Shown here piece by piece: positions 10,062-44,739 of a DNA stretch of 64,000 bases. Position 1 is the stretch's first letter. Each line of letters starts with the position of its first letter. This DNA comes from Inonotus obliquus (taxonomy: Eukaryota > Basidiomycota > Agaricomycetes > Hymenochaetales > Hymenochaetaceae): positions 3,100,001-3,164,000 of the forward strand of contig JAJHTX010000004.1 in NCBI GenBank assembly GCA_032164295.1, given 5' to 3'. The position numbers and the translations under genes are program-made. The notes below the pieces were generated by a model. That model was not told where the DNA came from, did not search any database, and worked only from the letters and a program-made list of their open reading frames with translations.

Positions 10062-13000
10062 ATGATTGGCAAGAAAGTATCAGGAAAACAAAGAAAGCAC
10101 TTAGAGAGGGCTCGAAATGCTGGAAAATGTGGTGGAAAGGAGAATGGAGTGGTTACTCGGAAGTTTAAAATAATCAGTGATGCTCTGAAGAGAAGTGAGG
10201 AGCAACTTACGGAGACCATAGGTATCGCAGCAGAACGACAGCTGACGAACAGATGCCTTCAGAAGGCTGTTGCGATTCTGGAATCAAGAAATGTGAATCT
10301 GACTACGCACCTGGAAGAAGCACAACACAAGCTCACCAGTACTGCAGACCGCTTACTCGAGGCCTGAGCACGCTCGTCTGGCTCAAGCCAGGGCATACGA
10401 AACTCACGCAAGTCTATTAGGAACTTGCGCGAGTTGAACAGTCAGCTTCTCAATCAGATCGAAGCGAAGGAGAAAGAGCTTGCCAACCTTGCAGAACAAG
10501 GAAGGCTGCTACAGATGCAGCTCCATTCCTGCCTCACCTTCCTCAATCAGATGAGCACCACCCTTGGTTTTGTGTGCTTCGAGCGTACAGCTGCAGAAGC
10601 TCAACAACAGACTACCGAGAAGCTCATAGAGCACTTGAAGCTACAGGTTCAGCAAAACGAAGAGAGATACAAGAAAAATGTCAAGACCTTATGAAATCGC
10701 CATAGTTGGCTCCAGAAGATCACTGCTCGACTTCGAGTGAAGCTGTCCCGAGCTAAAAAAAAATCATTTGCCTTTCATCATTCAAAAAAATCACTATTGA
10801 AAGCTGCCGACTTACTCACCAGGGTATATTCAAGGCACCGTTTCGCACCCTGGTTCGTCGAATTGTTTCGTTGGGCTCACCCTTGTCAAAGTGCCGATTG
10901 GTTGTCGCCGAATTCTTCAAGTACATGTACAAGACATGAGGATTAGCACTGGAGGATAAACAAAAGGGAACAATTCATATACCTAGCACACGAACGATTC
11001 GACGAATAATTGGTGAGGGTGGTATTGCCTCAAAGTTGCAACTTGCACATGAACTGAAACAATCAAGAGGTAAGTAAGAACTTCAAAGTGGAATACAGTA
11101 TAACTCACCTATATTCTTACAGGATTTACAACAGGCGGTGATGGGACGACCAACAAGAATCAAAACTTTGAGTCCTTGCACTTCAATATGACACTAAACA
11201 AAGCGGATAGTGAAGACAAGCTTTTCTCAAGTCTTTCGCAAGAGAGAGACTCACCCAAAATACGTCGAGTTGTTCGATTTGGTGAGGTTCGACTATCAGC
11301 AAACCATCGAGCCGAAACGCAAGTGCAGGGTGACACTCACTTCATGCAGGAGTTGGTCGATATTCATGAGCAAAGCTCCTTGGCATGGGCAGCAGAGCCG
11401 ACCCCTCCACTCAGCATTACTACCCTCACTCTCAAGTACCATGGATCGCATGGGGATCACGCTGAAAACCAGAAGGCAAAGCATCGGTTGCTTGCTTCTT
11501 GGAAATCCGAGACGTCTTTGCGAGGGCTTGGCGCTCAGCATTTATTTTCAATGCCTGAAGAACAACGATCGAATTTGGTTCATAAAGAACGAGACCAAAT
11601 GATTCTAGAGTTGGGAGGTGAATCAGTATGGGCGAGTCTCAGTGATGAAGAGAAACAGCAGAACAAACTACGAACTATGAACAGACTGGCAAGGACCCTT
11701 GCAGATGAGGCTTTTTTGGCACTTCCAGAAGCTGAGAAGCACCGATTCATGCTGTTTGTCTGGAGCGGATGTGGCATGCATAAGGAACTGAATGCAGTGA
11801 AGGGAGGCGATTCAGCAATGTGTGAGGAATGGAAGAAACATCAAATCTCACCTCGACTCCTCGCAAATAAGGACAACACTGCTGTTTTGCAGCTTATGGA
11901 GGCAGACAACCCATTTGATGATGATGATGATGCACCCCGGGGTGAGAGTGCTGCAGAGAAGAGAGCCCGGGACGTTTCGAAATGTGGTGGAGTGAAACTC
12001 GTGAGTTTGATGGGAGTGCTGCTAAACAATAAGGATGATAAGAAAGGTCAGACTATACTCAGCTAGGATCTATTCTATAGGTACTTACTCAAGTCTCACA
12101 TGTTTAAACATGTAGGGCAGCATCATGTCTTCCGAGACCATGCAACATGCAAGCTTGGCCAACCGATTTTGTTTCCTGACACATCTAATACCCGTTATTC
12201 ATCATATCTTGATGCTGCTGCCGAAATCCTGGCACGTTTGGATTTCTATGTCGATTTTATGCAACGTGTTCGGTTCTCAAAGGAAAAACCTGGATTCAAT
12301 AACATGGAAGAAAACATTAGTGCAGCCTTGCAAGATGGACCAACACTCACCGAACTCGCATGCCTGTCTCTGTACTGGGAGGCAGTATCTGTCCCTTTCA
12401 TCTCTACCATTCGCAATAATGGACTCGAGGCAGTAAACACGCTCGATCTTGGCCCCTTGCTGCAGAATGTTCAGTCTCACATCAAGATACTCATCGACTC
12501 ACCAGATGTAATTCTTTCAGCCAATTCCGACTGTCAAGAGGCGATTATGGGTAGAAATGAGTCCTGGAACCGCCCTGATACAATCCAAGCGATTCAATTA
12601 CTCATTGCAAATTCAAGGCTCCCCGAGCTAAGAGCCCTGTTCAAGGCCTTTCTTATAGGGGCCTTGTTGACATGGGAGCAGTTTTCGTCAGAATTTAAAG
12701 CTGATGGTACAATTGTCGGACTTACCAACGAAGAACGACAGCTGGCATGGATGCCAGCTACAAACGATGCAAATGAAGGTGCTCTTGGTGCTTATAGAGT
12801 TTATTCGTGCAGGAATCCAAACGGTACAATACATCTATTCGATTCGCTATTCAGATATCAACGAAACAATATAGAAAGTTTTATCGAGAAGGAACTCACT
12901 GGGGAAAGGCACCAAGTCTTCTTGCGGAAACGGGCTCGAGAGGATGATGTGATAGGACAGGATAGGAAGCGGCACCGAGAAGTCAATGATGAGTGTGAGA

Positions 13001-13221
13001 GAGATGTAGAGGTACACAGAGAGAAAACAGAAAAAACGGCCCAACAGAAATCCGCCCATGAGAGGAAGCTCAGAGAGCTTCCCATCATGGTGGATCACGT
13101 GTCCATTGAGAAGCTTACCTCCTCTGACTTAAAGGATCAGCTGGACAAACTCAGAGATATCAAGAACAATATACTAAGCGTACCTTCAGTTGGTGAAATA
13201 GGTAGCAAGAGGCTGGACTGA
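10062..13221 (+). pseudogene. Transposase-like gene of the TIR element, decayed
   Basis: Reading runs from ATG 10062. The N-terminal part is a Lys/Glu-rich coiled coil. Exon junctions 11069/11123 and 12046/12116 join the rest in frame to the stop at 13221. Motifs in order: GTIHIPSTRTIRRIIGEGG, GFTTGGDGTT, GSHGDHAENQK, WSGCGMHKELNAVKGG, FPDTSNTRY, ATNDANEGALGAYR and a Lys/Arg-rich tail. Proteins with this motif order are widespread and uncharacterised in agaricomycetes. The spaced acidic residues (GDGTT, GDHAE, NDANEG) and the C..H motif suggest a DDE/RNase H-fold transposase; that is inference. The copy is broken by TGA at 10365-10367, 10692-10694 and 10937-10939, each at a place where CGA (Arg) would restore the frame, plus a frame change or unmodelled intron near 10740-10840. 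Confidence 0.75.
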
Positions 13222-13293
13222 CTGCAAATTTTGCTGGATGTCTTAGACCGGTACATAGCCCGTTCCTCTGGAGAACTAACAGTAGTCCATAAC

Positions 13294-13986
13294 CACCTGC
13301 GGATCCCACCCTACGTAATCAAATTAGAGGGAACTTCCCTGTCAAAAGTTCCCTCTAATTTGGTGCCATTATGAAATTATCCCTATACTACGATTAATAC
13401 TGTGTCCTGCACATTAATGATATATGGTTTATAGTGAAGACATGCCCGGTACGTGATCGACTCTCTGACTAATGCTTTATCTGACCAAGCACTCGAGTGA
13501 TCGACTCGCGTGACCGGGTATGGGCCCATACCCGCCGCTTGCCCGCGTCTTCGTTCAACGCCGATCGTCACGCGTCTTCGCACAATGCCAATCACCACGC
13601 GCTCGCTGTCTCGCACGATGAGCACGTATGTTTAACAATAACTCGCTCATTTCTCCACCGATTTTCTTCGTTATTTCACATTTGCTTATTATTTTTCGAG
13701 CAGAAAATTATTATACAAAGAGTAAAATGAATTATATTATTCTAAAAATAATTACACACTCCGCGCGACACCTCACCCGGCCAACCAACCAACCAACCAG
13801 CCAACCAGCCAGCCAGCCAACCAACCACCCATCCATCCACAGGACCATCCCAGCTGCTCGAACATTCGATCAAACGATGATATGCACGGTCGGATCACCG
13901 GTGTTTTCAAGCAATCGAACGGGCGACTGGTGGATACATTCATACAACCGACCGTGGCACACCATCCAACCCCGGCGAGTCAAAAA
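13294..13986 (+). repeat. Left long terminal inverted repeat of KDZ element
   Basis: About 693 bp, matching 20796-21484 in inverse. It contains a 16-bp-arm hairpin at 13321-13361 and an AACC/AGCC tandem tract at about 13778-13838. Differences from the right copy fall at CpG sites in every case I compared (13 positions), apart from length change in the tandem tract. Confidence 0.92.
13321..13361. repeat. Subterminal hairpin of KDZ element (left)
   Basis: Arms AAATTAGAGGGAACTT and its complement AAGTTCCCTCTAATTT around a 9-nt loop. The mirror copy is at 21418-21458. Likely an end-recognition structure. Confidence 0.75.
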
Positions 13987-14082
13987 TGCAATCGCTTACC
14001 ATCTTCTGGAAGGAATAGCGACACGGGAGTGAGCTTGCTTCATGGGATGAATGGACGACTGATTGGTGGTGGCACGATCGAT

Positions 14083-16371
14083 TCAATCGCGATGATCATT
14101 TGAGTCAGCGCGTTCCTTCCTTGGACCACGTTTCTTGCCCTTGTCTGACCTCTCCTTCCTCTTCCTCTTTGGTGGTCCACTAGATTCATCTGGTCGCTTG
14201 TCTGTTCGCTCGTCTTCACGCTCATCTGAGTCCTTGTGATGCTCGTCTGTCCCCTCTTCTGAGTCGTTTTCTATCGCCTCCCAATGACAATCACCTGCCT
14301 CAACTGTGTCGCAAACTTGTTCGAGTGTTCGTTCATTGAGATTGTCAATTGGACCAATCTTCTCGAGCGGCCAATTGACTGAACGTTGAAGAGAACTACG
14401 TGCAGCTGAGCTCGGTATCGAGCCCAGTATCCCATTCTACGCTTATCCCATGCTACAGTACTGTCCCATCTACACCTTCCAGTATCCACCAGCACACCTA
14501 GAGAAACTGTCGGTCCCATTTCTCGAAGTACCGAACGCCGAGAGTACCGGTACCAAGCGCCAAGAAACCCGGTACCGAGAATACCGAGAGTACCGAGTGC
14601 CGAGAAACCCGGTACCGAGACAATTTGACAATTCGACATGCTCTCATGACATGGATCGGACGTCTCCCTCTCTGGTATTCATTCCTGATGGTTGGACTAT
14701 GCATGCCGGTTCTTTGGGGAAGCTCAGGGTCAGTATCTGTTAAGGTTTTCAGGTCCAGTACCACCAGAAACGTGTCGGTATCAATCAGCAGGGGTGCAGA
14801 TCTCTTGTCCTGAGGACTTTTCATCCAGGGGTACTATATGCTACATTTTCATTGGTATCTTGTCCTCCCTAACCCTTTCTTGTTGTCCCCCTGATGGCGC
14901 TGCAATGTTCACTTTCCTTGTTACATTTTTCTTCAGACTTTTCTTTGTTTTGATCTTCCTTTCTACTTTCTCCTTTTGGATTTATGAGCTAACTACGGTA
15001 CAGTAGTATAAATATCTCCTGTTGTACGTAGTAGCTCTCCAGGTAATCTTAGGAGCTAGCCTCTAGCGTGAGGGCTCGGGTTTCCTCACCCCCTTCTCAG
15101 TTCCGTCTCAGTCTCCTCTCAAGCTTCGTCCCAGTCCCAGTCCAGTTCCATCTCAAGTGAACCTTCAGAGTTAGCCTCCCGTGTGAGAGCTTAGGTTTCC
15201 TTCCCAGTCCAGTCAACACTCTCAGCTACCAGCCTCCCCCAGTCTGTTTCTTGCTATACCACCCCGTGCTAGCAGTTTCCTTGCAGTACCGACCTGTACC
15301 GATGTTTTTCCCACGGTACCGACATTTTGTTATCCTTTGTATTCTGCACATCCACCTTTCGTTTCTGTACTGAGCTTTTGTTTTACAACGTTTCTGCACA
15401 TACCGAACCCGTTCGTTCAAGTACCGACCTGTACCGAGGTTTTTCCCATAGTATTAGACTCTTGTTTTGCTACGTTCTCTCTCATACCGACCTGTACCGA
15501 AGTTTTTCCCACGTTCTAAACTGTCCTTTTCATACCAGAATAACATACTCTTCGCTTCTGGCCCATCCATTCACTCCCCCATTTCATAGACAACAAGTAC
15601 CGTGAGCGTACTGGTTAAGTACCGGCACATATTAGCCCTCCCCCACTTAAAACCATACACCCCTCGTCTCGGTACCTCTGGTACCGGACGTGATCTCGCA
15701 CATTTAGCGACATCCTCGGACCATCCATGGCGAACTTTCGTGTTGTTTGCAAATCCGACAAGAAGATCGGCCAGACGAGTGTTGTGCTCCTCGCACAGTT
15801 GTTCGATCGTCAGCCTGGAAGGGAAACGAGCGGGCACCTTCGTGACGAGCGCGGGAATGAGCGCAGTGGGTGGCTGGTTTGTGACGCGCTGAAGGCGTAC
15901 ACGAGTGAGGTCGAAATCGGTTGTGATGATGTAGCGGTCTTCGACACGGTCGATTATATTGACCTACACAACAGAACAGATGGTTCGACTTAGTGAGCGA
16001 ACGAACGAACGAACGAACGAACAAATGAATGAATGAATGAATGGACGAACAAGGCCTTTCAAAAGTTTTGTGGTGAGCGTTGCGTGCTGAGAGTGCCAAT
16101 CATTAAAATTCATGAACGTCAAAATTTTGTGTAGAGGGTCCGAGTCCTCGCGGCGTTCGTCCGCATGTTCGAGCAGAAGATCGAAGAAAGCGGCCTTTTG
16201 CTCAATCGTCCACGTAGATGGACGATCGATGTGGAAGGGCACAGCGCCATGTGGAACGACAGCGCGAGGAGCATTCCTCGACCTTGTTGCCAAGCCTTCA
16301 CGTGCCTCGACCTGCCATTGAGGCATGATGTCGTCGATGCGATCGAAGCGACCAGTCGGATTGGTGGACAT
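14083..16371 (-). CDS. Unknown passenger gene of the KDZ element, interrupted
   Basis: ATG at 16371 opens a reading frame with a basic leader and the stretch WTIEQKAAFFDLLLEHADER. A likely intron spans about 16039-15963: it contains a GAAC/GAAT tandem repeat, and its splice GT-AG rejoins in frame. Exon 2 reads VNIIDRVEDRYIITTDFDL and then RLTIEQLCEEHNTRLADLL. Coding resumes near 14400 with WPLEKIGPIDNLNERTLEQV, an acidic Asp/Glu/His run and a basic nuclear-signal-like tail (PPKRKRKERSDKGKKRGPRK), stopping at 14083. Between the two halves lies ~1.3 kb of GTACCG-rich DNA that looks inserted. I do not recognise the family. The acidic and basic tail suggests a nuclear, DNA- or chromatin-associated role. 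KDZ elements in mushrooms are known to travel with TET/JBP genes, but I see no HxD iron-binding motif. Confidence 0.5.
14400..15690. repeat. GTACCG-rich, internally repetitive insert
   Basis: A block with an unusual density of GGTACC/GTACCG words. Near 14520-14635 runs of GAGTACCGAG and CCCGGTACCGAG repeat. Near 15288, 15421 and 15485 a ~28-bp unit containing CCGACCTGTACCG plus GTTTTTCCCA occurs three times. It lies between two well-coded halves of the KDZ passenger gene. It may be a nested non-autonomous element or a greatly expanded intron; its ends are not resolved. Confidence 0.55.
16000..16045. repeat. Tetranucleotide tandem repeat (GAAC/GAAT)
   Basis: Alternating GAAC then GAAT units within the proposed intron of the KDZ passenger gene. 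Confidence 0.8.
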
Positions 16372-16499
16372 GAGGACGGACGGACGGACGGACGACTAAG
16401 TGGGGGGATGAGAGAGTGGGTGAGAGGACGAGTGAACAAGGGGACACATCCCTCAAGTGACTATAAATCGAAGCTTATCAACTAAGTTTAGACCTGCTT

Positions 16500-17226
16500 T
16501 CTCACCAAGAATTGCTTCCGTTGCTTCCATTCACCACAATGCTTATCAGCCACACATCTCCGTCAATCAGTTGCCAAATTTAGTCAAATGTTCCTCAGAT
16601 GTGCGAGAACTATGCTCGAAACTCATGTCTGCCAGTTCGTTTGACCCAAAGATTTAAACTCTATATGTACTACTTGGCATCAGACATAAGTTTCAAATAA
16701 ATCAAGCTATTTGCTTGTAAAAATACGAGGATAGAAATAATTATATATACTTGAAGTGTATTGATCATATGTATCACCATTATGTCACAAGTGCATAGTA
16801 TCTAACTAATTATGCTAAGTACAAAGCATTTGGTCCTCTATGAGATGTTGAAAATCAGCAGTGAATGAGGTGATAGTATGGTACTCTGTTAGGGGTGTAA
16901 AGCCAGAAAATTGAGAAATGTGTTCTTCAGACGCAAATTGTTATTTCTGCTGGTCTTGATTAAGTGATAGCAATGAACAGGTAGGTTTACATTGAAAAGT
17001 TTAGGCGTACATCAGATTATCTCATAGTTCTGAATATACCTGAGTTTTTAAATAGTATTCAAGAATTATTTTGAGTTGATAGTACTCAGTCAGGTGGTCA
17101 GTCACCAAACCAAACATATGATTGACATGCTACACCATCATTTGAATCTACATACACTCGTCTGACTACATATGCTATGAAATGTTTTGATCCACTTAAC
17201 CAGATAGTCACTGGTAATTATTAGTG
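16500..17226. other. AT-rich spacer inside KDZ element
   Basis: Between the passenger gene's promoter side and the transposase stop codon. AT-rich with no coding signal; presumably the transposase 3' UTR and passenger gene promoter. Confidence 0.4.
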
Positions 17227-20200
17227 TCAGTCCTCGGCAGCATCCAAAACATCAAAAATCACATCCATTTTCTCTGCATCAGTATCCGAATCATCTGAAT
17301 CGCTAGTGCTGTCAACTCCATTCTTATCACGTTGTTTGCACGGTTCATTCGATTCTCTGCCTATTCCAGCTATCGGTACGTTTACTGAGACAAACATTTG
17401 AATTGGTTTGCCAGCTCTTTCAGGTAAGTTCAAGCCGAGACTTGCAATTTGCACAAGTCGTTGACGTTGTACTTGGTTCACCTGTACCTGGATGTTCAAC
17501 CGTTTCTGCAACTGAAAGGCAAGATGATTATTTTCTTGCTCTAGTACTGCTAATTGGTGCTTCATTTCAGCTTCGACATCATTCATAAAGACGAGCAGTC
17601 GGCTTTGCTCAACATCCAAACGGGCGAGCTCCTCACGCGAACACTGCAGCTTAAAGAAAGCAGCTACTGCTTCTCGAGCAGCAGGTCAAGTCCACGGTTT
17701 CTCGAGCACGTCGTACCGACTCTCACGCAAGAGATCAAACTCGCCCACGAAGACATACTCAAGAACTTCTGCAACATTAATGGGATTTCGAGGATTCGGA
17801 AGGTCGAGTGCTGCCTTGTTATACTTCGTTACTGCCGTTCGAATGGCTTGAGAACACGATTTCAAAGCTTTCGCTATTTGAGTTCGCTGGCGGTAACCTT
17901 TATGAATGTACGGACGTCAATAATAATCATACGGTCAATTTAGGCAAAGTCATACACGTTCCGATACGATTCATTTTCGATAACTCGAACAATCGTGAGA
18001 CTACAAGGTTTTCGAGATGATCGACTGCCTTGCGGTATGCCTTTTCAGCAAGCGTCCTGTCTGCCCCACGCCATTCGGGGCAATCGGGAGTCCATCTATC
18101 TTTCACACTGAGCTTTTCTTTGAGAGCCTGGGCCGTCGTTTGAAGCACCGTAAGAGTCTCCAGACTCTTCCTCCGAGCACATTCAGCAGCACGAGTGGAC
18201 GCAGAGTCACCCGAATAGTATGTCACCGTGTCAAACTGATCGGGCGGGATTTCAGACCAAACTTACATTGATTTCTTAAATGACGACCTTTTGCTTTATC
18301 AGTCGGCAACCTAGTAGACATGAACATGGACTCACTGGGCTTCGTTCAAAGACTTGAGCGTCTGTACGTACTCACTTGCGATTATGTCCGTTTCGGGGAC
18401 CTGTGAGACTGAGGAAAGATACGCGCATTCCTCCTCCTTCCAGCGCTCAAATGTTGTGTCTGACGAGACGTCTAGTTCGCACTTTAGTTGGTCGAGCTTC
18501 TGCATGAGGGTCGCAATGTTATTCAAAGCCTGTTTATAATTTGAGTATATGAACGAGCCTATAAATAGTTTCAACGAATCGTTTAAACAATAGTTTTGTG
18601 CGCAAAACTCACTTAAGCCTATAAACCGATCTTGGTTCCATCTTTCGAAATGATGTATGATCACTTGATGACGATGGTACGAAGATGCGTGTCGAGTGCA
18701 CAGAGCGACACGATTCGATTCAGAGAATATACGTTCGCAACCTTCGAAATCCTCCAAACCGACACCCTGCTGATAGAGTGGATGCCAGCGAAGTTGACAT
18801 TTGCGACAATGCGCATGTCCATGGAACGCGTTGACGCATAATTTAAAATTCGAGTTCTTCGCCTTTGGGCCCAACAAAGGACTATTTCGAACGGTCGCAC
18901 TGAACCCGCACCCGATATCATAACCAGTCATGACATCCTCCCTGAAGGTATCGATCAATTGGTTCACGAGAGTGAGCGGATACTTGGACCTGCAAGAAAT
19001 TATATCAAGGACGACCGGAAGAACGACTATTTGGAAAGACGTACAGCTCCCCGCTTCACACCATATTGCAAAGATAGAGCACAACACCATGTCTGCACGA
19101 TGCGACAAATATGCCCGTTTCCTCAAAAATTCCCCACATTCGTTTCTTCGAATCCTCGCCTAGGTTGGTCCACCGATCCACGCAAGGTGATTCATCATCC
19201 GGACCTTCAATAGGCCGCGAGCTAGCCGTCAGTTGTTCTGTTGCATTGTTTTGACGACTTTTGACCTCATCCTGAAATTTATTCACTGTCGAACGATCGA
19301 CCATCATGTACGATGAAACCCTTCGCGAGTCGGGTAGCTCGATGCTCTCTGAGAGCGTACCCCCAGCTGCTGTTACGTCCTTCCTTCGTTCGACTCGCTT
19401 CAACGACTCGTTTCCGTCAATGGCAGTCAAGATGGATGGTGTGAGGGGTGATTCCCCGTCGAGCTTGTACGCACAGCACGGGCAGCATTTTTGTATCATT
19501 CCACGTCTTGACTTGAACAAAAGATCGTCGAGTCGATTGTTAATCCTCAGCCTGATTTCGAAGTATGCATCGTACGCATTGCGACTTGTGCGAGACATTG
19601 ATGGATTATAAACTACCTATGTCCTATCAGTCAATTGAACGTATTGTGTTTTTTTTTTGCCACTCACTTGTTGTAAATCACATAAGGAACGCACGAATGA
19701 CTGAAAGCTGAGAGTCGCACATCTACTTATGATGACATAGAAGAGTTCGAGCGTGTCGAACGCAATGGCCGCCTCGGGGTGAAGTGGGGAGGTTGCCATA
19801 TACCCATGTCGGGCCAACGTGACGACGAAGTCCTCGTCTGGGACTCGTGGCAAGGAAACGGATGAATGATCTTAATGAAAGGCGTGAGCACGAGTCGATG
19901 GTTGAGCTAATAACATACCTTTTGTTCGAATAACCAAAATCTCTGGATGCATGTCGACTGAAGTGTTTCCATGAGCTGGTGGAGATCCAGAAGCATTCCA
20001 TGATAGATATGCATCAACGAAGCGATCGTATTGTAACATCCAGGCATTGTTCATGCATAGCCTGCGATCCCTCTGCGTACGTGAATCGTGTTTCCCATTA
20101 CTTCAGTTGCATCCGTCAATACTGTTGTAATGCCATCAAGTGTTCTAACGTACCTGACCATTGCCTCGACGAACTCAATCCCTGCTGAATCAACATCTTG

Positions 20201-20449
20201 AAGTGGTTCATCAACCCATTCATCATCATCTTTGTATATCATGAAAGCATCTATATCGCCGTGGACGAGCTGCATCTCGCTTCGAATCGCCGCATTCTTG
20301 CATTCGATCTGCCTGGCCACATTGTCTCTCGCTCGTCCCGAACGGGTTTGTATTGATCTTTCAGTTTGACGGCGTAGGTGCAGGCTCGATGAGGAAGAAA
20401 TAGAACCTTGAATCCTCTTCGATAAAACGCCGTGACGATCTGCAGGCAT
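17227..20449 (-). pseudogene. KDZ transposase (CxC2-type), one premature stop
   Basis: Coding segments run in order from about 20449 down to 17227 with several short introns; the intron 17955..17898 was resolved in frame. The start at 20449 (MPADRHGVLSK) is a choice. Motifs match KDZ transposases: CPCCAYKLDGE; AIDGNESLKR (first Asp); PCVDRWTNLGED; MWGIFEETGIFVASCRHG; GYDIGCGF (second Asp); FHGHAHCRKCQLRWHPLY; GLEDFEGCERIFSESN (Glu); LENLVVSRLFELSKMN; and a coiled-coil C-terminus ending LDAAED. The enzyme excises and inserts the element. TGA at 17686-17688 splits KPWT from PAAREAV; CGA would restore Arg. The upstream catalytic core has no stop that I could see, so this copy may be only recently dead, or the stop may truncate only the C-terminus. 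Confidence 0.88.
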
Positions 20450-20795
20450 GGTGAGCGAGCGAACACTGCTCCAGTTGTGAGGAGTGTAAGGTATGATAGT
20501 GTCACACCCGTCGATCACTATCAACAGTCGGCAAGATGAACACAACCACTTGCTTATTCACTCACCCGATCTACATTTCCGTTCGCTCGACGCTGGTGCC
20601 CATCGTCAATCGCTCATCAGAGCAATCCTGCAACATGCTTGTGAATGACCGCTTTCAATTAAGCAAAACGGCTTCCCTCTGCGATCGCGACCATCTGCTT
20701 CGGTGTCTGACCAACCTCGAGATAATATCTACCCCCTATCCTTCACATCTACATCATTACTGCCCTCAACTGCCTACATACAAGATGGTTGGATC

Positions 20796-21484
20796 TTTTT
20801 GACTCGCCGGGGTTGGATGGTGTGCCACGGTCGGTTGTATGAATGTATCCACCAGTCGCCCGTTCGATTGCTCGAAAACACCGGTGATCCGACTGCGCAT
20901 ATCATCGTTTGATCAAATGTTTGAGCAGCTGGGATGGTCCTGTGGATGGATGGGTGGTTGGTTGGTTGGCTGGCTGGCTGGTTGGTTGGTTGGTTGGCTG
21001 GGTGAGGTGTCGCGCGGAGTGTGTAATTATTTTTAGAATAATATAATTCATTTTACTCTTTGTATAATAATTTTCCGCTCGAAAAATAATAAGCAAATGT
21101 GAAATAACGAAGAAAATCGGTGGAGAAATGAGCGAGTTATTGTTAAACATACGTGCTCATCGTGCGAGACAGCGAGCGCGTGGTGATCGGCGTTGTGCAA
21201 AGACGCGCGACGATCGGCGTTGAACGAAGACGCGGGCAAGCGGCGGGTATGGGCCCATACCCGGTCACGCGAGTCGATCACTCGAGTGCTTGGTCAGATA
21301 AAGCATTAGTCAGAGAGTCGATCACGTACCGGGCATGTCTTCACTATAAACCATATATCATTAATGCGCAGGACACAGTATTAATCGTAGTATAGGGATA
21401 ATTTCATAATGGCACCAAATTAGAGGGAACTTTTGACAGGGAAGTTCCCTCTAATTTGATTACATAGGGTGGGATCCACAGGTG
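20796..21484 (-). repeat. Right long terminal inverted repeat of KDZ element
   Basis: Inverse of 13294-13986, with the mirror hairpin at 21418-21458 and the TTGG/CTGG tandem tract at about 20950-21000. Confidence 0.92.
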
Positions 21485-21981
21485 TCCGTAACCGTAACCA
21501 GTAAATAATGCAATCAGAACCCTAGTGATCTTGATGTTTACAGCGACGATGATGATCTTCTTCAGACTGTAGAATAGTGCAGAGTAGAACGTATTAAGCA
21601 TCATCTGCGTTGCCAGTTCATCGGTGTGCTGCGCAGTGGAGGTTCCGGAAATGAAACTTGCGAAACTTGCATGTATGCATCGCATTTTTGCTATTATATG
21701 TTGTTTTTTGCGGATTAACGTCAGAGGTATGCATATATATTGAAATATTGATGTTTTGTATCAGAAAATTCAAGGGCTCGCAGACTGGGGTGGACGTAGA
21801 CATGAAGAGAGGAAGGCGGTAAGTATACGTTGACGATTATAGCCATACATGGTAATATTTGAATCTCCGACTAAACATTTTTAGCACACGTGACAATAGG
21901 GGATTGCCAGTCACCACTAGTAGAAGTTTGAAGTTCATGAATAAAGGCACGTGATGTTTCAATAGTCGCCTGCTCTAAAGT

Positions 21982-22812
21982 TGGTGCCTGGCACGGCCTA
22001 TGAAAAATCTGTGACACTTTTACCCGGGCAGAGTTTTAAATATTCTCCATTTATAGTAACTCGCATCGATCTTCATGTCCCACTTTCTGGTCCCCCACTA
22101 AGTCCCTTGAATATGTAGTTCCACAGAATTTGAGTTATTTGTCCCTTCTTTTCAACATTAAAAGGCTTAGAATAACCATTCAATGTGAGATATACCAAAT
22201 CCAAATCGATTGTAGGTGATATTCAGGCAGAATATACAAAACCATTTTTACTTATGTGTCACGTGATCTTATTTTGGCTTTTTTGCACGACCTTATCTTC
22301 CTCTGAAAACACTTATAAAACTCCTTTAAAACTGCTTGGACATCATGTATGTGTGTATTAGGGTAGTTCTGTCAACAATATGCGAAAACAATTGACATAC
22401 TGATGGAGAGATTAGCATATACAGTAGACACAGCAGCATAAATGCTTCCTAGTTCAATGAATTCAGGCTTTCTTGTCATATTTCTTTCACATATATAAAC
22501 CTTAACAAAAAATAAAGATTTTGTTTAAAAAATTTCTTAAGAAGTGTCTTAGTTATTTATATATGTGTCAAAAATCACCATATCTTGGAATCTGTTGGAC
22601 ATTTTTTGTGATTTTTCTTACCACCTTGTTCAGAGTGTCGAAAAATAATTTTTGGACATTTTTTCAGATTTTTTGTAAAGTTGTGGAAGGGAGGACAGGC
22701 CCTCGAATCTCAAAACAAAAAGTGGAACAGGTGAATCCGTGTTGATCGCCGCTTAGCCATGGAAGGGACCGTGGGAATGTCACGGAAATTACATAGGCCG
22801 TGCCAGGTACCA
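21982..22812. mobile_element. Non-autonomous TIR element, 831 bp, different family
   Basis: Ends TGGTGCCTGGCACGGCCTAT and the inverse ATAGGCCGTGCCAGGTACCA, flanked by a perfect 7-bp duplication CTAAAGT (21975-21981, 22813-22819). No coding capacity. The TGGTG start and 7-bp duplication resemble the family at 1278/9487/22819, but the interior is unrelated. It landed exactly on the left border of the next element: the last base of its right duplication is the first base of that element. Confidence 0.82.
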
Positions 22813-42810: not shown

Positions 42811-44739
42811 ATGGAATACCATTCTTCAAGGGCACATTTGGCAATGCTGGACTCGGCAGCCGCGTCCGTATTGCAGGCATGGGAGAACTCCCAGCGACAC
42901 AGTGCGATCCATCGCTCACAGTTCCAGTATAATGCGTTCCCTATTTCCCCAGTTTCTCCCTCTTCATCTCCATCTGCAGCTAGCTGTATGTTGAGTAAGC
43001 AGTGGCCACCACCGTCGTCGTTGTCGTCGTCGTCGTCGTCGTCGACGATGAATGAGTTTGAGATGCTACAGGTGAGGCGGGGAGGCCTTTTACCGGCGGG
43101 AAATGCCGACCGGGAGCCGACTACGCCGACCGCCAATTTCACTTTCGATTTCACTCTCCCACATCTTCCACTTCAACATCCATCATCCAACAATCTTCAG
43201 CCTTGCTCGTCGTCTCTCCCAACGCCGACCTCACCAACCTCATCGTCAGCACTCTTCTCTTCTCCACCAGTCACGCCCCCAAACAACATGACCTTCCGTC
43301 GCGACTCTTCTGTTTCCGCACACTCCTACTCAGGCACAAAGCGCTCCTCAGATGAATCCGAGCCTCCTTCAGCGACGGCGACGAGCGCAAAGAAGCCTCG
43401 TGCTTACATGAGTCTCAAGGACTTTGTTCCTCCGGATGTCACTGGACTCTCCAAACGGGAAGCGCGTCTAGTCAAGAATCGCGCCGCCGCATTCCTTAGC
43501 CGGCAACGAAAGCGAGAGGAATTCGAGCTCATGGAAATGTACGGAGTTTACTTGTTCAGTCTATTCCTCCGACCTAATCCTCTACTACAGCCGCGTCGCC
43601 GAGCTTGAGCGAGAAAACACCCGTCTGCGTGAAATGGCCGATGGCTCCTCTCCACCGCCAACCTCTTCTATCGACTCGTCCGAACTTGAGCTTCTGCGCA
43701 TGCAGCTTACCGCTTCTCGCCAGCGAGAAGCCGAACTCGTTCACCGTATCGAGTGTTTGAAGCATGAGCAACAAAAAATTAAGACGGAGGCAAACGAACC
43801 GAGTTTAAGCGACGGCGTAAGCTCGGGAGCCAACTCGCCTGTCATGGCTCCCACTTTACCTCTCAAGAACATTGTTTCCAACCCAAAGACTGGAGCTAGT
43901 CTGGGACTCATGGTTCGTGCTCATTTTTCATAGAAAAATTCATACAGCTAAATGAACTGCCTCCGTAGGTTCTCCTCTGCGCACTGCCTTCACTGCTTTC
44001 GGATCCCTCTTCACACCCACGATCTACCCTTCCAACGTCCCAATCGTTCCTAGATACTATCCAATGGGATGCGCCGTCATTCTTCCAGACATCTACATCA
44101 ACGTCGGCGTCGATTGATGAAGTACCATCGTGGGAACTTGATTTCCCTGGTACGACAGCAGGGGGCATGGATATGGATATCGACTACGGGAACGTGCACA
44201 AGACGGAAGAAGAACCAGAATGGAAGAAATTGGAGTTGGGCCTTGAGGGTGGCGAGGACCTCGCAGGCCTGGGACTAGGGGCGCTCGACATTTCCTTTGC
44301 GACCCGTCGAACAAAGGACGGCAAGATCCGCGTCAAAGTACACTCCTCGCCATCCACTTCATCTACCGAACCTAACCTCAAAACGGAAGACAACTCTGCA
44401 ACTCTTGATACCTTGTCCGATCAGTCGCTCATGCCGTTCTCTCTCCCCTCCCCTGCTCAGTCACAATCAAATACCCCATCCGCTTCCAACTCTGACGAGA
44501 ATGGCATGGTTAACCCGCTTGCATTGTCCTTTGTTGATTCTGACCCCTTGGGCCCTTTCCTTGGTGCCGGTTCTTCGCCGACGGGGGCTTTTGAACTGGG
44601 TGCACCCTTCGACTTCGCCGGAACTGGTTCCGGAATAGCCGGTGCGCAGACCGGTGAGCGACGCCGAGTACGCATCGCCCTCCGCTCATTGCCACAGCCT
44701 GGCGGCGAGGGTGGTGAATGGGAGGTCGAGGTGCGATGA
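42811..44739 (+). CDS. bZIP transcription factor (paralog 1)
   Basis: Exons 42811..43538, 43591..43912, 43969..44739; 1821 nt, 606 aa. Ser/Pro-rich N-terminus with a poly-Ser run (from a TCG repeat). The basic region SKREARLVKNRAAAFLSRQR (about residues 215-235) has the bZIP signature N-x7-R, followed by a short zipper (VAELERENTRLREM) and a second coiled stretch (ELELLRMQLTASRQREAELV). Intron 1 falls between basic region and zipper; intron 2 splits a hydrophobic stretch ASLGLM|VLLCALPSLLS (~345-361). An acidic region (DMDIDYGNVHKTEEEPEWK) and a conserved tail RRRVRIALRSLPQPGGEGGE end the protein. It resembles ATF6/HAC1-like fungal bZIPs more than GCN4. Targets unknown. Confidence 0.93.
43012..43050. 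repeat. TCG trinucleotide repeat in bZIP gene 1
   Basis: A TCG/TTG-TCG run encoding poly-serine. Paralog 2 has no equivalent run here but has CAG-type poly-Gln and poly-Ala tracts elsewhere. Confidence 0.8.

Follow-up and report, generated by a model that had tools for sequence, protein, structure and literature searches.

When two copies of one sequence sit at the ends of a single transposon, do they age like any other DNA, or does their divergence reflect how the element has been treated? This question is raised by a KDZ element in Inonotus obliquus, which occupies positions 13294-21484 of a stretch of 64,000 nucleotides (here the window; contig C4, 3100001-3164000) in a genome of 36.07 Mb assembled into 30 contigs. 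The element is bounded by terminal inverted repeats (TIRs, hereafter arms) of 693 and 689 bp. According to a first-pass annotation, the arms differ at 13 positions, all of them at CpG dinucleotides, pointing to methylation followed by deamination or to a CpG-directed process resembling repeat-induced point mutation (RIP). As set out below, 14 out of 15 substitutions between the arms are transitions at CpG, and this pattern very probably results from the slow decay of CpG methylation that would have been maintained to silence the element.

Divergence of the two arms

Alignment of the left arm (13294-13986, plus strand, starting with CACCTGCGG) with the right arm (20796-21484, minus strand) yields 689 columns with 15 substitutions and one 4-bp indel; gap columns were dropped from all counts. 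No transversions are found, and the 14 transitions at CpG (C/T or G/A) are evenly divided: seven CpGs decayed in the left arm (13411, 13570, 13586, 13590, 13702, 13886 and 13909) and seven in the right arm (13300, 13314, 13579, 13779, 13860, 13867 and 13888, in left-arm coordinates). The only non-CpG substitution, G/A at 13816, is located, as is the indel, within a CCAA/CCAG tetranucleotide array on the plus strand (approximate limits 13782-13829). The CpG changes listed in the first-pass annotation and their spread over both arms were thus borne out, while its count fell short and its claim of exclusivity was too strong, since it had named no change near 13909 and neither the non-CpG change at 13816 nor the indel. 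It had also stated correctly that the 8-bp target duplication (TCCATAAC at 13286-13293 and TCCGTAAC at 21485-21492) differs only by CA/CG.

In the arm pair, 112 of 689 columns are CpG, which gives a binomial p of 1.1e-10 for 14 out of 15 changes falling there. When 15 random transitions were simulated on the left arm in 20,000 trials, a mean of 4.2 and a maximum of 12 were scored as CpG. If a column is counted as CpG when any of six arm sequences holds one, transitions between the arms affect 14 of 120 CpG columns versus 1 of 569 others. With the CpG columns set aside, and with them the 100 columns that surround the array (about 13770-13833), none of the remaining 511 differs. The same non-CpG columns were compared with further KDZ copies in the genome, the number of which is a lower bound. 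Here the window arms differ from the arm of the copy on contig C13 at 2 of 510 columns and from the arms of the C8 and C10 copies at 16-21 of 510. These columns are therefore free to vary, and constraint does not explain the identity of the window arms there.

The direction of change could be derived from the four other genomic arm sequences, at least one of which keeps CG at 13 of the 14 sites. At site 13579 all four read TG or CA, indicating an ancestral CG there too. All 14 differences are consequently best read as CpG loss. Four more CpGs have been lost in both window arms, with a chance expectation of 2.0 (p 0.10). Arm divergence was rejected as a simple measure of the time since insertion, because the arms of the family look homogenised (see below) and because insertion of a cut-and-paste element is not known to render its arms identical.

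CpG changes in other copies, other transposons and genes

The core of the window element (15709-20372) was compared with the copies on C8 (locus L025) and C10 (loci L027/L028). With hidden TG/CA columns reassigned to the CpG class, transitions affect 150 of 594 CpG columns and 41 of 3451 columns elsewhere in the comparison with C8, and 212 of 682 and 46 of 3960 in that with C10; core transversions amount to 15 and 22 in total. Without this correction the ratio between CpG and other transitions is 15.9 and 16.5, respectively. The right arm of the C8 copy was not found in the examined stretch and the C13 copy ends at the contig end, so that neither yields an arm pair. Among the CpGs lost in both C8 and C10, 33 have changed in the same way and 22 in opposite ways, and therefore many losses are independent and some probably inherited.

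The bias extends to two other classes of transposable elements (TEs). For Copia, eight loci out of 60 matches were aligned over the first 2880 positions of L049, skipping columns with fewer than five letters or more than two alleles; for Gypsy, seven of eight loci out of 150 matches were used, L057 being excluded with an identity of only about 75%. Since the best-scoring copies were taken, both samples favour intact ones. CpG transitions make up 49 of 82 private changes (60%) versus 26 of 124 shared changes (21%) in Copia (p 2.5e-8), and 23 of 63 versus 22 of 107 (21%) in Gypsy (p 0.03). Among the private CpG changes that could be polarised, losses outnumber gains by 36 to 8 in Copia and by 18 to 4 in Gypsy. 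Private changes should for the most part have been acquired after insertion and shared ones carried by transposing lineages, which suggests that the CpG bias is tied to resident TE copies.

While CpG loss affects transposons, most ORFs of the window show no sign of it. The window contains 33 stop-to-stop open reading frames (ORFs) of at least 150 amino acids on both strands, some of which overlap and not all of which are genes; four lie inside the element. CpG observed/expected is 0.82-1.26 in 27 of the 29 ORFs outside the element, and the remaining two, at 11104-12063 (0.66) and 12067-13218 (0.68), adjoin the transposon. In the diverged window paralogues 43204-44334 and 51199-50057 (74% identical), transitions affect 39 of 218 CpG and 102 of 886 other columns. 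For the core of the element itself, CpG observed/expected is 1.17 in the window copy, 0.89 in C8 and 0.73 in C10 (where a slightly longer stretch was measured), and CpG depletion of the window element was rejected accordingly.

Methyltransferase homologues

Five matches to the DNA_methylase profile (PF00145) are located at four places in the genome. The homologue at C3:1645026 matches chain 7r76_A, which is titled Rad8 and which we take to be Cryptococcus Dnmt5, with an E-value of 1.2e-91 and was classed as Dnmt5-type. Comparison likewise classed C2:1713350 and C1:865543 (L046) as DNMT1-like and C1:3499574 as DNMT2-like. All these classes are based on one compared fragment per place and do not imply full-length intactness. 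Judged by similarity, the genome thus encodes putative CpG-type methyltransferases, namely one homologue of Dnmt5-type and two DNMT1-like ones. The DNMT1-like ORF at C1:865543 terminates in SGFPW, about where we would expect the PPCQ-type catalytic motif, which may be split by an intron.

According to a review of fungal methyltransferases, the principal enzymes of basidiomycetes are DNMT1 and DNMT5, with a preference for CG, and methylation is found preferentially in TEs (PMC7862722). Likewise, DNMT1 and DNMT5 together with CG methylation concentrated in TEs are described for basidiomycetes in PMC7473861.

Mode of decay and alternative explanations

In the explanation that we consider very probable, the window arms record the slow decay of maintained, silencing CpG methylation. 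After insertion, the KDZ element would be silenced by CpG methylation, kept by maintenance enzymes of the DNMT1/DNMT5 type. Deamination, presumably spontaneous rather than enzymatic, would convert methylated cytosine to thymine far faster than mutation alters other sites, so that, with each event affecting a single strand, CpG becomes TpG or CpA. With one strand changed, the site would no longer be a CpG and would not be re-methylated, leaving the partner cytosine safe, and the two arms would decay separately from the time of their last identity. Methylation followed by deamination, as proposed in the first-pass annotation, is well supported, albeit indirectly, by the dependence on intact CpG, the equal involvement of both strands, the location in transposons and the methyltransferase homologues. 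Its opposition to random ageing needs rewording, because the decay is ageing, although of CpGs that were probably methylated.

The strongest competitor is a RIP-like burst directed at CpG, in which repeats would be recognised during the sexual cycle and many of their CpGs mutated at once in both copies. It agrees with a repeat in which 14 of 15 changes, spread over both arms, are C to T at CpG on either strand, and an agaricomycete CpG signature in TEs was indeed termed RIP by its authors, who left the process open (PMC6980582). A burst on both strands predicts, however, that TpA is common. Over nine copy rows, 46.0 TpA are expected if both cytosines of a CpG are hit independently and 5 are observed (one more, which the two arms of the C8 palindrome described below have in common, is not part of this count), from which it follows that the second cytosine is largely safe after the CpG is broken. 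The order of strands among the core hits does not differ from that in shuffled sequences (p 0.50 for the window, 0.40 for C8 and 0.12 for C10), so that no strand runs are apparent in a test blind to whole-element single-strand rounds. Adjacent losses do not clump in the three core rows and in four of six TIR rows. A TCG-type target was rejected, as TCG has the lowest loss per site in the core (0.14, compared with 0.21 for ACG, 0.19 for CCG and 0.18 for GCG). The classes read for the PF00145 places, where RID/Masc1 was not searched directly, also speak against a burst, as does the change in the 8-bp flank, which is not part of the repeat, although RIP is able to spread past repeat borders (PMC4014442). 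Many small CpG-specific rounds, or whole-strand rounds, would look alike. The pattern of substitutions is what would be expected if a symmetric CpG mark were lost in single events, one after another. Because TpA is rare and strand runs are missing, slow loss of methylated CpG is favoured over the burst, and the RIP-like process named in the first-pass annotation appears unlikely. Both the TpA and the strand test can be run on sequence alone and do not need bisulfite data.

A further alternative is that ordinary mutation favours CpG only mildly, and that the small sample and purifying selection acting on the repeats exaggerate the effect. It could draw on the fact that the arm pair holds no more than 15 differences and on the larger non-CpG share in the core comparisons (Fisher p 0.04 and 0.08). 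It is highly improbable in view of the p of 1e-10 for the arm pair, the freely varying non-CpG columns and a transition bias in the 4-kb cores that reaches 16- to 27-fold, depending on the treatment of hidden sites. Editing of silenced repeats by an AID/APOBEC-like cytosine deaminase or by transcription-linked damage would fit the C to T direction, but has the least chance of all, given the strong CpG dependence, the missing strand runs and the balance of core losses between strands (56 and 58 in C8, 74 and 88 in C10).

Several observations weigh against slow decay of methylated CpG. The CpG share of the private Gypsy changes is no more than 37%. An inserted-repeat pair, L024:3159-4886 and L027:5360-7087 (98.5% identical), shows 5 CpG transitions among 24 differences, and the CpG bias is therefore not common to every repeat pair. 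Among the six TIR rows, clumping of adjacent losses is seen in that of the window right arm (p 0.013) and that of C13 (p 0.012). Once CpG and hidden TG/CA sites are removed, the core still shows transitions, which are more frequent at CpA (26 of 1528) than at CpC (8 of 866) and CpT (6 of 1398); this may reflect a weak second methylation target or old CpGs that escaped detection. Four other copies have both ends. Two of these carry a perfect 8-bp target duplication, and the relative at C1:202269 has a single mismatch, which is non-CpG. In the fourth, the KDZ copy on C10, the 8-bp flanks of the two outer ends (L027:128 and L028:8646) do not match, so that the C10 arms may not be two ends of one insertion and this copy may be rearranged or composite. 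The other results of the copy comparison hold in either case.

If CpG loss proceeds as proposed, TE ages derived from raw divergence of TIRs or long terminal repeats would be inflated by CpG sites in such genomes.

Palindromic relatives and possible arm conversion

Three non-autonomous near-palindromes of 2.5 kb share ends of about 130 bp with the KDZ element and are located at C5:353243, C1:202269 and C8:1988588 (L029:2744-5286, L030:2770-5330 and L031:2589-5149). Over the first 1180 bp, the two arms of C5 match each other exactly, as do those of C1, and those of C8 differ at 3 sites; between palindromes, 15 to 59 substitutions are found over the same length, with 15 between C5 and C1, and 57 and 56 between the C8 arms and C5. 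Among the CpG losses unique to the C8 palindrome, 11 are shared by its two arms and 1 is confined to one of them. Over a longer self-alignment into the centre (about 1370-1390 bp), identity within elements is 97.6 to 98.0%; the middle of the palindromes is thus not homogenised, or the spacer was aligned to itself.

Concerted evolution of the arms is the best account of this arm identity, although assembly or polishing may have homogenised them. Through gene conversion, one arm would either pass its decayed sites on to the other or have them restored. In the window element, the arms lie 6.8 kb apart and differ at 14 CpGs. That the inverted arms of the KDZ family copy methylation scars from one to the other is a tentative proposal from the substitution patterns, with a chance slightly below even. 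If it is true, CpG loss and arm conversion would represent two clocks within one element. A narrow literature search for work linking TIRs, gene conversion and CpG deamination in fungi found none.

Transposase and neighbourhood of the element

The window element is a DNA transposon of the KDZ superfamily, with a KDZ domain, inverted repeats of about 690 bp with termini CACCTG...CAGGTG, and an 8-bp target duplication. Two minus-strand ORFs match PF18758 (KDZ transposase) with E-values of 7e-47 and 6.4e-23, better than the curated cut-off. The C-terminal part of the domain (PF18758 positions 99-217) is encoded in an open frame at 18635-18991, and the N-terminal part (positions 2-101) at 19038-19436. 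The matched stretch of the latter contains one TGA, for which an intron may be responsible.

On the left, the low-CpG ORF 12067-13218 has no Pfam match at an E-value of 0.1. Database search with ORF 12100-13221 gave 222 matches. The best of them shares 57% identity and comes from Sanghuangporus weigelae, whose genus belongs to the Hymenochaetales, Agaricomycetes, in line with an agaricomycete host. The named proteins among 120 listed matches are agaricomycete and are hypothetical or uncharacterised. On the right, the stretch at 22-24 kb has a CpG observed/expected of 0.52, and a 92%-identical repeat is shared between 21977-22738, 0.5 kb from the element, and L031:5149-5911, adjoining the C8 palindrome. 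A further repeat with inverted parts is present at L024:3159-4886, L027:5360-7087 and L030:5505-7273, one copy of which splits the C10 KDZ copy. Plasmid records were searched and gave no match.

Comparison with known systems

Among KDZ transposons, the window element resembles those of the Zisupton/Dileera side in its KDZ domain, 8-bp duplication and inverted repeats, and differs from two Kyakuja families of Laccaria, which have 7-bp duplications and lack TIRs (PMC12730594). A profile search for Tet_JBP gave no match in this genome, but control genomes were silent too, so that absence is not established; a TET/JBP gene carried by the window element is accordingly unsupported.

RIP in Neurospora and other Pezizomycotina also changes C to T in repeats (PMC4352252), but mainly at CpA, while here CpG dominates and CpA is a weak residual. 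The RIP-like hypermutation at TpCpG in Microbotryum (PMC5381629) likewise hits a CpG-containing target in TEs; no TCG preference is seen here. Rhizoctonia solani AG8, an agaricomycete, shows the same CpG to TpG bias as hypermutation between nuclei, about equal in genes and repeats (PMC4014442), whereas most host ORFs in the window are not CpG-depleted. TEs of Tricholoma matsutake, an agaricomycete with two masc2 copies, exhibit CpG hypermutation that is presented as RIP (PMC6980582), whereas our evidence leans to slow decay under maintenance methylation.

CpG-biased TE decay has thus been published for basidiomycetes, including an agaricomycete, and the window element is a new and unusually clean instance. 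A 2025 paper nevertheless cites Horns et al. 2012 for the lack of hypermutation in Agaricomycotina (PMC12730594), and a term search in a kingdom-wide RIP survey of the same year turned up Agaricomycetes twice and none of Basidiomycota, CpG, TCG and deamination (PMC12543289). The closest precedent is the CpG-signature C-to-T bias in basidiomycete TEs, strong in Microbotryum and weak in two rusts (Amselem et al. 2015, PMC4352252). The three CpG-only species of that study have a Masc2-like DNMT1 and lack RID/Masc1, and its authors propose deamination of methyl-cytosine after de novo methylation resembling methylation induced premeiotically. Both cases share C to T changes at CpG in TEs, but the earlier study is based on whole-genome TE collections. 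Here, two arms of one element, supplemented by strand and TpA tests, are compared, and a single element with long arms provides an internal control, with both copies at one location and almost no other mutation.

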